A stretch of DNA of 25,634 nucleotides from a virus (IMGVR_UViG_3300017772_000106:1-25634); one strand, 5' to 3'. Shown: positions 15,071 through 18,552, counted from the stretch's first letter. Numbers and translations are program-made. Notes: a model not told the origin generated them from the letters alone.

Positions 15071-15613
15071 TCACTGTTGTTTCACTGTTTTTATTAAATG
15101 TCGTCCTACAATATCCATAATGTGTTCTATAACATACTGTTTGTGTTCAGGACTATTATTGTTAAATATTTTTACACTGTTGTTATTCACAATGTTACGT
15201 ATTTTTGTAAATTTCGCTTGTATAAACTTTTCTGTTTGATTGTCTCTACGGTCTATGTGTCTATCAATTAAAATATCCTTATCAGCCTCAAGAACTATTA
15301 TATCACAATCCACCTTATCAAATAAACTCTGATTAAATAGTCTGTCACCCTCGAATATTACTAAATCATTATCACTGAGCTTATTCACAAACTTAAAAAA
15401 ATCAGGTTGACACGCCATACTTAGCTTGTCTGTCCCCGCAAACGTAGAATTGTCATATACACCTATTACGTAGATTCTAAGCAACTTACTACGCACACCC
15501 TGTATTAGACCAAACTTGAATTTAGTTAGTGGCTTAAAATTGTTTAAAATGCTTTTTATTAAAGTTGTTTTTCCCGTTGCAGGTACTCCACCAACTGCTA
15601 TTATTTTAGCCAT
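15071..15613 (-). CDS. P-loop kinase, candidate 5-hydroxymethyl-dU DNA kinase
   Basis: This encodes 180 residues. Walker A is GVPATGKT (9-16). GTDKLSM (60-66) and VIFEGDRLF (85-93) supply the candidate substrate-binding and acidic residues. RHIDRRDNQTEKF (about 118-130) looks like an Arg-rich lid. The fold is that of small nucleotide kinases, but the substrate motifs are not those of thymidylate or adenylate kinase. Directly upstream is a helical protein of the type fused or linked to kinases that phosphorylate 5-hydroxymethyl-dU in phage DNA, and a TET/JBP-like oxygenase is two genes further. I infer that it phosphorylates oxidised thymine within DNA to create a leaving group. A nucleotide kinase acting on free dNMP is the main alternative. 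It overlaps the upstream gene by 13 bases. Confidence 0.65.
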   Translation of the reverse strand: MAKIIAVGGVPATGKTTLIKSILNNFKPLTKFKFGLIQGVRSKLLRIYVIGVYDNSTFAGTDKLSMACQPDFFKFVNKLSDNDLVIFEGDRLFNQSLFDKVDCDIIVLEADKDILIDRHIDRRDNQTEKFIQAKFTKIRNIVNNNSVKIFNNNSPEHKQYVIEHIMDIVGRHLIKTVKQQ

Positions 15614-16467
15614 TGTTGTTCATAAGTTTCGTTTCTAAAATCCCAAAGGACATCCCAATCAACTCCTGTGGAAACTAATTCAGTCATTTTTAAAATCTCT
15701 GTTCTTTGTCTATCAATGTAATATCCAATGTAGCGTTTTCCTAGCTTATATTTCTTGTAAGCACACAAGGTTGTTTCTATGTTCCAAATATTTTTCTTAT
15801 CAATGTTTAATGTTTGTATGTGTTGTTTTAGTTTTTTAAACTCCCACTGTAAGTATTTTATTTGATTCTCTGTTAGCCTCTTGTTATTCTTATGAGTGTC
15901 AAGTTCTTTTAATCCTAGATGATACACAAGACCGTTTCGACAGCTCTCAGCGTTTTTCAAGTCAAGGTTTGTAGGCTCTAAATCATAACCCGTTAACACA
16001 TTAACCATTTCCAAGTATATAAACATAGTAAATCTTCCAAAGTTTTTAATCCTTGATAGATTGATGTAGCAATTATCGTATGTGTTCTGCGATGTAGGTT
16101 GTTTCAGTGATTCAAAATAATTCTCTTGTGAGTCTCCAACTAGATTTTTATAGCTTTGAAAAGTCTCTACAAATTTATCACTGGTCTTTATTCTTAACCT
16201 ATCTGTTTGAAACAGTGTTTTATTCTTGTTTGTGTTCCACCATCTTCGTAATCTATTTATGTTCACATTCTCGTAGTCAGGAAACTCGTTGTAAATATAA
16301 TATACAGTGGTAGCTGAGTAACAAGTACCAAATAAAAACGCCAACCAATATCTTTGTTCTATGTTTAACTCAAATCTATTCGCCACATATCGTAAACAAT
16401 CATTGGAAGGGTCAATGTCTTTCGCTTCCGAAGACCTCTTGTGATATTCAATGTAATCAATACTCAT
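15601..16467 (-). CDS. Helical DNA-modification protein (5-hmdU kinase helical domain / thymine pyrophosphorylase group)
   Basis: From ATG 16467 this gives 288 residues; two more codons upstream would need a TTG start. Highlights are RYWLAFLFGTCYSATTVYYI, YNEFPDYENVNINRLRRWW, a Thr-Asp pair in LFQTDRLRIKTS and a C-terminal VDWDVLWDFRNETYEQQW. This all-helical pattern (aromatic-rich, EFPD then RLxRWW, then TDR) is how I know the group called alpha-glutamyl/putrescinyl thymine pyrophosphorylase or the helical domain beside 5-hmdU DNA kinases. These act on hydroxymethyl-uracil in DNA and help replace it by larger groups. The neighbouring kinase, oxygenase and amidotransferase fit. The exact reaction is unknown to me. 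Translation is coupled: its start lies inside the end of the amidotransferase gene. Confidence 0.6.
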   Translation of the reverse strand: MSIDYIEYHKRSSEAKDIDPSNDCLRYVANRFELNIEQRYWLAFLFGTCYSATTVYYIYNEFPDYENVNINRLRRWWNTNKNKTLFQTDRLRIKTSDKFVETFQSYKNLVGDSQENYFESLKQPTSQNTYDNCYINLSRIKNFGRFTMFIYLEMVNVLTGYDLEPTNLDLKNAESCRNGLVYHLGLKELDTHKNNKRLTENQIKYLQWEFKKLKQHIQTLNIDKKNIWNIETTLCAYKKYKLGKRYIGYYIDRQRTEILKMTELVSTGVDWDVLWDFRNETYEQQWLK

Positions 16468-17074
16468 AAACAAAATTAGGCTCTAATAATTCAGGCTCAT
16501 ACTCGGAGTTAACTCTTTTGAATATATCACGTGTAGAGGCAATATAAACAGCGTCTTTGACAATAAGTCTCCATAATGGTCTTCTGCTATTACGCACGAC
16601 AAATAATTGCTTAGACTTGTTTAAAATCATTCCCGCAAAACTTCCTTTCATATTTGTGATAAATTCTTTCAAGTCTTCTTTTCCTACACATTTGTGTAAT
16701 ATTATTTCTCCATCGTTACCCGTATGCATACTGATGTTATACTTCTTTTCAATCTCCGATTTAGTCCCCATATCAACAACTCCGTTAAACACAAGGCTTT
16801 TATCTCCAACTGTAACTGGCTGATTATTAATGTGTTGTCTAAAATCTCCGCTTGTGGAATACCTATTGTGGTATATAAATTTTTTAGGCTTTGGAAACTC
16901 TGACCCGTCTATATCAGCCATGTCAAAATATTTATTTGTAATTAATCCGTTATCATAATATGTGTAACCGAAACTATGTAAACCTCTGATTTTGCTTTCA
17001 TTGATAAACTTTTTAAGAATATCAATATGCTCTTGATTAGGGTTATCACATATAAATCCTACTACACCGCACAT
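16457..17074 (-). CDS. Stand-alone class II glutamine amidotransferase
   Basis: This encodes 205 residues. It starts MCGVVGF, so Cys2 becomes the N-terminal nucleophile after Met removal, as in Ntn-type glutaminases (PurF, GlmS, AsnB). The other expected elements are in order: HNRYSTSGDFRQHINNQPV (substrate loop with Arg), VFNGVVDM (oxyanion Asn-Gly), and TGNDGEIIL (normally SDTE-like). The chain stops after the glutaminase domain, so there is no built-in synthase. It would release ammonia from glutamine, or transfer it to a partner. In this operon the likely partner is the DNA base modification machinery, perhaps to place an amine on activated hydroxymethyl-uracil. The gene starts one base after the oxygenase stop. 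Class assignment is firm; the acceptor is inferred. Confidence 0.82.
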   Translation of the reverse strand: MCGVVGFICDNPNQEHIDILKKFINESKIRGLHSFGYTYYDNGLITNKYFDMADIDGSEFPKPKKFIYHNRYSTSGDFRQHINNQPVTVGDKSLVFNGVVDMGTKSEIEKKYNISMHTGNDGEIILHKCVGKEDLKEFITNMKGSFAGMILNKSKQLFVVRNSRRPLWRLIVKDAVYIASTRDIFKRVNSEYEPELLEPNFVYEY

Positions 17075-17075
17075 A

Positions 17076-17972
17076 TTAATTAATTTTATCCCCTCTGTTC
17101 CTATTCTTTACAATCTCGTATTCTTCATCAGCAGTACCGCAGTGTATCATATTACTTCTGTAATACATAACTAGAGAAACTCTTGTGGCGTCTTCGTCAA
17201 TCTTTTGTATTGGAGTATTACCGTGCCACTGGTGTACGTCAACAAGTAGTAAATCGCAATTTTGTATATCAAAAGCAACGCCCCATTTAGGCACAACAAA
17301 AAATCCTCCCACATATCTACCTTGACGCAATACAACTAGGTTTCCAAATCCTTTTTCGTAGTCTCCATTGTCGGTGTGTATAGCTGTTTGCCAATTCTTA
17401 TTAACTGTGACGGTCGTAAAGCTCGTATCATTGATAACAAAATCTTTAGACGTGTTGTCTGCCATTTCCCTCTGTAACTTATAGTGGTCAGGCATTAGCT
17501 CCTTATATTTTGTGTCAACAAGTTTTATGATAGGATATGCTTTTTTAAATTTATTAAACTGTTTCTCATTGAAAGCTGTTTGCCTACAATACGGGAAACG
17601 GGGGTTGCGGTCAAAATAACCAATGATGCCACTTTTAGTTATCTGTGAAGCCTTTTTAGTATTCGACACAGTACCGTCTTTTTTTATCATTGTAGTCTCG
17701 GATTCGTCCTTGTGTACGTCTCCACTGCTTATACCTCTGTTGTTTGTATGTGATGCTGCGTCCTTTAAATTGTCAAAAGCGTTTTTAGCAATGTTATTTG
17801 GTATAATCTTTTTTCTAAACTTAGCAATAACCTTTCCTGTTTCAGCACAGTAAATATCGGCATTGTAATTTATCATTGTATTATAATCCTTTTCAGATAA
17901 TAAAACGCCTTTTAATTTATTAGCTTCTTCATCTGTTAACACAGGCTTCAATACTACCTTTTCAATCCTCAC
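17076..17972 (-). CDS. TET/JBP-like 2-oxoglutarate/Fe(II) DNA dioxygenase
   Basis: This encodes 298 residues beginning at GTG 17972, overlapping the ParB-like gene by 11 bases; the next ATG is 32 codons in and would cost conserved sequence. The metal site is visible: H199 and D201 in AIHTDNGDY, H250 in VHQWHGNTP, and R264 in ATRVSLVMYYR to bind 2-oxoglutarate. The stretch GFGNLVVLRQGRYVGGFF and an upstream FDRNPRFPYCRQTAF are typical of the TET/JBP branch, including phage members. These enzymes hydroxylate the 5-methyl group of thymine or 5-methylcytosine in DNA. No cytosine methyltransferase is in the window, so thymine to 5-hydroxymethyl-uracil is my preferred reaction. Family call is strong, substrate inferred. 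Confidence 0.82.
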   Translation of the reverse strand: MRIEKVVLKPVLTDEEANKLKGVLLSEKDYNTMINYNADIYCAETGKVIAKFRKKIIPNNIAKNAFDNLKDAASHTNNRGISSGDVHKDESETTMIKKDGTVSNTKKASQITKSGIIGYFDRNPRFPYCRQTAFNEKQFNKFKKAYPIIKLVDTKYKELMPDHYKLQREMADNTSKDFVINDTSFTTVTVNKNWQTAIHTDNGDYEKGFGNLVVLRQGRYVGGFFVVPKWGVAFDIQNCDLLLVDVHQWHGNTPIQKIDEDATRVSLVMYYRSNMIHCGTADEEYEIVKNRNRGDKIN

Positions 17973-18552
17973 AAGCCTTTGTAATTAATTTAAACACGGT
18001 GTCAGTCATATTATCAGTGGCAAATTTCTCTCTGAGTTTTAATTCGCATTTTCTGAATATCGGCTCTGTGTCGCTATTAAGATACAGTTGTACCATTCTA
18101 ACATGTGATGATTCGTTTTCTTCCTCTGGAAAGTCGTATTCTCCAGTGTCTTCAATATCACTATCAAATTTGTCTTCTGATTCTTCCCACTGAGGAACGT
18201 CTATACCGTATGTGTTAAGAGTATCACTGTTCCATGTGTTCGCTAACATATCCCAATTCCAAGAGCCAAAACTTGCGTTGTCTTTGATGATAAATTCGTT
18301 CTGTTGTTCCTCTGTTAAGTCTTCTACCTTCATTACAGGGATTTCTTTAAGTCCTGCTGATTTACACGCTTTTAGCCTCATATTGCCCCCTAGAACAATC
18401 ATGTCGCTATTTACAACAATAGGTCTGATATTGAGCATTTTTGGAAACTCCTTAATTGATTTAACTAACTTGTTGAATTTATCATTCTTGATTACTCGGG
18501 GGTTGTTCGGATTTGTTTTGATTTTCGAGATTTTTATGTTCTGTATCTTCAT
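17962..18552 (-). CDS. ParB-like nuclease-domain protein
   Basis: This encodes 196 residues. Residues 1-95 form a ParB/Sulfiredoxin-like domain: ISKIKTNPNNPRVI at the start, LVKSIKEF, then MIVLGGNMRLKACKSAGLKE (ParB box, GGNMRLKA at 55-62) and IPVMKV. Next come LTEEQQNEFIIKDNASFGSW, an extension typical of phage ParB proteins tied to DNA methylases, and a long acidic part (about 115-150) of Asp and Glu before a small C-terminal domain (VRMVQLYLNS). ParB boxes in this group bind nucleotide and may act on DNA. Here the fused or neighbouring methylase is absent and the oxygenase overlaps instead. It may direct or license modification, or act in partition; neither is proven. Confidence 0.75.
   Translation of the reverse strand: MKIQNIKISKIKTNPNNPRVIKNDKFNKLVKSIKEFPKMLNIRPIVVNSDMIVLGGNMRLKACKSAGLKEIPVMKVEDLTEEQQNEFIIKDNASFGSWNWDMLANTWNSDTLNTYGIDVPQWEESEDKFDSDIEDTGEYDFPEEENESSHVRMVQLYLNSDTEPIFRKCELKLREKFATDNMTDTVFKLITKACED

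Follow-up and report, generated by a model that had tools for sequence, protein, structure and literature searches.

In phages M6, ViI and phiW-14, 5-hydroxymethyl-deoxyuridine (5-hmdU) is substituted in a kinase-dependent manner (PMC6449724; for phiW-14 also PMC5977210). A second set, that of phages PaMx11 and Ab18, comprises an amino-acid:DNA transferase (AADT) that is a glycinyltransferase, a flavin-dependent lyase, a GNAT, a kinase, HMUDK_hel and an enzyme of thymidylate synthase (TS) type. In Gordonia phage CaiB a ParB-TET-pyrophosphorylase-kinase set with 4-bp overlaps is annotated upstream of the terminase (PMC9302106), and the same set in Rhodococcus phage Tonitrus has been read as thymidine hypermodification (PMC11955845). 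Here we analyse a related cassette on IMGVR_UViG_3300017772_000106:1-25634, a 25.6-kb virus stretch from a marine phage of Bacteroidota type (the window, by which we mean all 25,634 nucleotides). In this cassette a stand-alone class II glutamine amidotransferase (GATase) is paired with an AADT, and we propose that its enzymes would hypermodify thymine in the phage DNA.

In the parts of the two actinophage reports drawn on here, CaiB and Tonitrus resemble the window in having ParB, TET/JBP, helical transferase/pyrophosphorylase and kinase genes, whereas Tonitrus has aGPT-Pplase2 in place of the AADT and a glutamine amidotransferase is not named for either set (PMC9302106, PMC11955845). A TET-initiated route to thymine hypermodification, which an earlier reading of the sequence alone (the sequence-only reading) had thought new, is thus already annotated in CaiB (PMC9302106) and Tonitrus (PMC11955845), as a prediction. 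What is new is that a GATase is paired with the AADT, and that the pair interchanges with a flavin-dependent route. The AADT fold, the kinase and the GNAT are shared between PaMx11/Ab18 and the window family, in which some relatives (form C, below) also hold homologues of the PaMx11/Ab18 AADT and flavin lyase. However, the first enzyme in PaMx11 and Ab18 is not TET but one that acts on the nucleotide pool (TS), and these phages have HMUDK_hel and are without GATase. With M6, which makes 5-NedU (5-(2-aminoethyl)deoxyuridine), and ViI, which makes 5-NeOmdU (5-(2-aminoethoxy)methyl-deoxyuridine), the window shares the 5-hmdU DNA kinase family (PHROG 800, M6 gp54) and ADDT (M6 gp51; PMC6449724). 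The M6 cluster differs in its TS-type start, in the pyridoxal phosphate (PLP) and radical S-adenosylmethionine (SAM)-type genes beside ADDT, and in having no TET or GATase. A glutamine-splitting subunit has not been seen in the versions of the pathway studied in the laboratory, and among the papers listed by a full-text search on glutamine amidotransferase and thymidine hypermodification none described a GATase-AADT pair.

Nearly all genes of the window lie on the minus strand. Read from 18552 to 15071 the unit is ParB-TET-GATase-AADT-kinase, with genes for a DUF5681 protein and the large terminase downstream:

17962 to 18552, minus strand: ParB/Srx-fold protein (ParB_N, 2.6e-9), first gene of the unit, which comes before TET in most relatives
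17076 to 17972, minus strand: TET/JBP 2-oxoglutarate/Fe(II) oxygenase (Tet_JBP, 1.3e-26), predicted thymine-5-hydroxylase on DNA
16457 to 17074, minus strand: stand-alone class II (N-terminal nucleophile, Ntn) GATase (GATase_7, 1.6e-8), predicted ammonia donor
15601 to 16473, minus strand: AADT (Pfam ADDT, PF18724, 1.4e-21), predicted to displace the phosphate of 5-phosphomethyl-deoxyuridine (5-PmdU)
15071 to 15613, minus strand: P-loop kinase (Walker A GGVPATGKTT; PHROG 800), predicted 5-hmdU DNA kinase

The four adjacent, coupled genes of the sequence-only reading are all present as minus-strand open reading frames (ORFs). TET and GATase are separated by one base, GATase and AADT overlap by 17 bases with the listed TTG start (11 bases if the AADT starts at the ATG at 16467, likely its true start), and AADT and kinase overlap by 13. 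The limit of four genes did not stand, as the ParB-like gene, which covers the TET start by 11 bases, is part of the same unit.

A TET scan of IMG/VR recovered 16 loci, and some 200 more came from scans with alignments of the GATase, the AADT, the flavin enzyme and the kinase; genes were then annotated by hidden Markov models. The window record and its relatives are fragments, and gene absences are read within that limit. Four cassette forms were found between ParB-TET and kinase-terminase: form A, GATase-AADT, which is that of the window; form B, GATase-GNAT-AADT, the commonest; form C, a shorter AADT with a flavin enzyme; and form C0, the shorter AADT alone (loci L175-L177, in our numbering). 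Counted on clusters at 95%, all 69 GATase clusters have the window-type AADT, and 63 of the 66 clusters with that AADT have GATase; two of the remaining three (L198, L199) end at a contig edge and the third (L210) is a distant member. GATase and AADTs of this clade form an obligate pair, which is also kept in other gene orders with a divergent P-loop protein (L100-L106, L142-L147). GATase and the flavin enzyme occurred together in none of the loci, and a GATase-ADDT gene fusion, sought as proof of coupling, was absent from the loci examined. GNAT stands beside GATase in 45/69 clusters and also accompanies the flavin enzyme in Ab18, which would fit an amine as the product in either setting. Dozens of distinct phage contigs show these genes in the same order, and the arrangement is therefore not due to chance. 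Among 50,697 phage records every match to the GATase and the AADT was below 60% identity (about 25-30% among the matches listed). These matches fell in largely different phage groups and no cultured phage with the pair was found, the pair being seen in metagenomic contigs only.

The mechanism finds its strongest evidence in modules that have been swapped in nature. Three pairs of metagenomic phages (L156/L054, L015/L067 and L010/L032) have TET proteins that are 91-98% and kinase proteins that are 93-98% identical, whilst the genes between them are AADT and flavin enzyme in one partner and GATase, GNAT and AADT in the other. The breakpoints coincide with gene junctions; the DNA of L156 and L054 is 93% identical through TET and 95.6% identical from the kinase through the terminase, and everything between differs. 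Moreover, form C is interspersed among the GATase forms in the TET tree, where well-supported branches force at least six label changes. The form C AADT matches the solved PaMx11 5-PmdU glycinyltransferase (4.5e-8) and its flavin enzyme matches a solved flavin-dependent lyase (4e-6), so that the shared TET and kinase would most simply feed 5-PmdU, a thymine-derived base. On this evidence the TET and kinase common to both swap partners very probably make 5-PmdU from thymine and, as they would supply it to the form C AADT, very probably supply it to the GATase-type AADT too. The modification would then lie on thymine and be made in DNA, not in the nucleotide pool. A glycinyltransferase of the PaMx11 type with the flavin lyase would presumably leave a bare aminomethyl group.

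We propose that the cassette carries out post-replicative thymine hypermodification in four steps. The TET/JBP enzyme would hydroxylate the 5-methyl group of thymines in the phage's DNA, giving 5-hmdU, perhaps targeted by its ParB-like neighbour, which is likely a DNA-binding or targeting partner and also precedes TET in CaiB and Tonitrus as far as those sets are described in the parts drawn on (PMC9302106, PMC11955845). The kinase would phosphorylate 5-hmdU to 5-PmdU, and the AADT would replace the phosphate by a nitrogen nucleophile. The GATase would be the ammonia-donating subunit of the AADT, giving 5-aminomethyl-dU by a chemistry like that of PurF, with ammonia from glutamine displacing the phosphate. 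In sister cassettes with a GNAT, this enzyme would N-acetylate 5-aminomethyl-dU. The first three steps together are strongly inferred and highly probable, the donation of ammonia stands at about an even chance, and the whole four-step explanation is given a probability of roughly 0.58. The oxidation, phosphorylation and substitution foreseen in the sequence-only reading thus gain from the enzyme families and from the swap with 5-PmdU enzymes. Ammonia, which it had named as a possible added group, is a plausible nucleophile given the obligate pairing and the PurF-like GATase.

The family assignments on which the first steps depend are clear for TET, where the Tet_JBP profile scores 93.2 bits against a curated cut-off of 34.9 and the iron and 2-oxoglutarate residues of the HxD...H...R motif noted earlier (H199xD201...H250...R264) are invariant in 28 aligned sequences; a PDB sequence search with the window TET as single query found nothing. 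The kinase, recognised beforehand as a P-loop enzyme of 5-hmdU kinase type, carries Walker A and belongs to PHROG 800 (1.2e-9), as does M6 gp54 (2e-39), which Pfam identifies as a 5-hmdU DNA kinase. Its residues G9, G14, K15, D62, E88, G89, R118 and R122 are invariant in 41 aligned sequences. No Pfam family was matched above cut-off by the window kinase, nor was HMUDK_HMUD1 matched, and HMUDK_hel was found in none of the TET-GATase clusters. PHROG 800 is labelled 'terminase small subunit', a label that GenBank/RefSeq also place on the 5-hmdU DNA kinase relatives M6 gp54 and Cr30 (L026:21686-22249, L022:17303-17848). This looks like a misannotation, and it will propagate wrong annotations. Phage TET/JBP enzymes are likewise found under other names, being annotated 'SNF2 DNA repair protein', 'oxidoreductase' or 'queuine tRNA-ribosyltransferase' (L022, L020, L021, hits H4 and H14).

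Characterised animal TET enzymes act on 5-methylcytosine, and phage TET enzymes that work with glycosyltransferases on cytosine are known. The window TET could by that analogy oxidise 5-methylcytosine in a cassette that hypermodifies cytosine, as might be suggested by the closest isolate, Nonlabens phage P12024L, in which TET adjoins a TET-associated glycosyltransferase (TAGT). However, neither a C5-methyltransferase nor a TAGT was found in the window, itself an incomplete record, and of 42 records just 2, both partial, gave a C5-methyltransferase above cut-off. After this search cytosine was rejected as the principal target, and we regard it as improbable, given also that the AADT and kinase families are those of 5-hmdU/5-PmdU enzymes and that homologues of solved 5-PmdU enzymes stand in form C cassettes whose TET and kinase are nearly the same. 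Sharing of TET and kinase with form C likewise supports thymine, the base already favoured before any database search, and the near-isogenic swaps argue for thymine as the substrate of the phage TETs in this clade. A TS-family gene (dUMP hydroxymethylase) was found in none of 30 records including the window, all of them fragments; Caulobacter phage Cr30, which has one, was not counted.

The GATase and AADT assignments bear on what the thymine carries. The GATase is a one-domain class II glutaminase, as had been read from its sequence: both GATase_7 and GATase_6 (2.1e-7) are matched above curated cut-offs, and the glutamine-site residues C2, R71, N97, G98 and D121 are invariant in 54 aligned sequences. 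Its AlphaFold2 model (pLDDT 94.5) matches the folds of GlmS glutaminase (Z 21.7) and PurF (Z 21.0), and Ntn hydrolases such as EgtC also fit (Z 18.7). By sequence profile the nearest relative is PurF; NCBIfam gives PurF/GlmS/AsnB matches only, far below cut-off. The class II fold and the glutamine-site residues are shared with the glutaminase domains of PurF and GlmS, whereas the window protein is a separate single domain of 205 residues, without an acceptor (synthase) domain in its chain, and is paired with a DNA-acting enzyme. The AADT scores 77.7 bits with ADDT PF18724 against a curated cut-off of 26.2 and also matches aGPT-Pplase3 (1.2e-5). The pyrophosphorylase kinship suspected for this helical protein is thereby upheld, but not its suggested role as helical partner of the kinase (HMUDK_hel). 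Its AlphaFold2 model (pLDDT 96.7) best matches the PaMx11 5-PmdU glycinyltransferase 8z2m (Z 19.6, root-mean-square deviation 3.3 over 256 residues), ahead of a queuine salvage enzyme (Z 9.4) and 3-methyladenine DNA glycosylases (Z 7-8). Profile-profile comparison with the glycinyltransferase-type alignment gave a probability of 96.5%. The link to 8z2m comes from the predicted fold and the form C homologues, not from direct PDB sequence search, in which the window AADT as single query found nothing and its profile gave one chance match (0.23).

Ammonia as the added group is suggested because the GATase is tied to the AADT and not to any ligase, because an AADT and lyase set expected to leave aminomethyl takes its place as one block, and because a GNAT able to cap an amine is found in 45/69 GATase clusters, as in the Ab18 flavin cassette. 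The kinship with PurF points the same way, since in PurF glutamine-derived ammonia displaces a pyrophosphate leaving group. The principal alternative keeps the same thymine route and lets the AADT install an amino acid (serine, glycine or glutamine) that the glutaminase then tailors, for example by deamidating a glutaminyl adduct or amidating a carboxylate. Known AADT homologues do use amino acids (the PaMx11 glycinyltransferase), the window AADT falls in PHROG 3271 and not in the glycine-type PHROG 6364, the fit of EgtC would allow such a hydrolase, and at L151 the pair lies near an amidoligase. Against this, amidation requires an ATP-dependent ligase, which the window cassette does not have, the GATase keeps every glutamine-site residue and has ammonia-channelling synthases as its closest folds, and in every cluster it is tied to the AADT and not to tailoring genes; its obligate partnership suggests ammonia instead of an amino acid as the AADT substrate. 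We therefore judge amino-acid installation unlikely, though the foremost of the rivals. That the GATase is an unrelated metabolic or decoy gene, present by chance, is a very remote prospect: stand-alone GATases do stand beside amidoligases in other phages (LUZ24), but here the GATase adjoins this AADT in 69/69 clusters across several gene orders, and the two are replaced as one block in the swaps.

Four observations weigh against glutamine-dependent amination of thymine as proposed. No TET was detected in four contig groups that have the GATase-AADT pair; the window kinase has neither a Pfam HMUDK match nor an HMUDK_hel partner gene; the TET-TAGT pairing in P12024L indicates that TETs of the window clade can serve other chemistry; and among phages the window AADT matches Ackermannviridae proteins (28.9%), a family whose member ViI has an O-linked aminoethoxy modification, so that the window AADT clade may use an amino acid. 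That the GATase and the AADT-fold enzyme constitute a glutamine-dependent DNA amination system, a second and interchangeable route to 5-aminomethyl-dU beside glycine and flavin lyase, is accordingly a tentative proposal, with odds just short of even.

Further arrangements were seen around these genes. At L148:8068-10170, on a 41-kb contig where no TET was found, a 700-residue protein with a radical-SAM-like N-terminal part fused to a TAGT domain adjoins GATase-AADT-GNAT-kinase. A tailoring role for the radical-SAM proteins near the pair in L148 and L151 was considered and set aside, since they give no clear guide, are not close to M6 gp53 and in L148 are TAGT-fused. No match to a PLP or radical-SAM family was found among the 30 window proteins scanned, in agreement with the sequence-only reading. 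A rabbit-gut Phocaeicola metagenome-assembled genome has ParB-GATase-AADT with a GNAT and a SAM-synthetase-like ORF nearby (L222:6572-9902), and TET was not found in that genome. At L210:4218-5985 the distant AADT and an adjoining ORF that resembles a DNA methylase lie between TET and kinase, without GATase, possibly a further module type. In Cr30 a stretch of 9 kb (L022:8955-17848) holds TET, a kinase of this type and an AADT-like protein; GATase was not detected, and the TS-family gene of Cr30 lies elsewhere. In Pelagibacter phage HTVC112P (L020:4378-6600) ParB-TET is followed by an FkbM-type methyltransferase, which suggests another downstream chemistry on the TET product. Phages P12024L and P12024S, which share one host, differ at the same place (L018:7986-10251 and L019:4314-5856), one having TET-TAGT-N6/N4 methyltransferase and the other a protein annotated ATPase-GNAT with small ORFs.

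Homologues of 17 of the 33 window proteins compared are found in P12024L, portal-, capsid-, protease-, terminase- and tail-like proteins among them, and the next closest relatives of the window terminase are in Riemerella phages. A Bacteroidota host, as first supposed, is therefore likely from this kinship. A PADLOC scan gave no meaningful defence-system match.

The swaps are near-isogenic natural experiments in which one oxygenase and kinase would serve two amine-installing modules, and they offer defined pairs for biochemistry. They suggest that tailoring modules are exchanged quickly, plausibly driven by modification-dependent defences. If the proposed mechanism is true, glutamine supplies the ammonia that aminates thymine after its incorporation into DNA, phages swap two amine-installing cassettes within one TET and kinase frame, and the cassette may provide enzymes with which a primary amine could be put on DNA.

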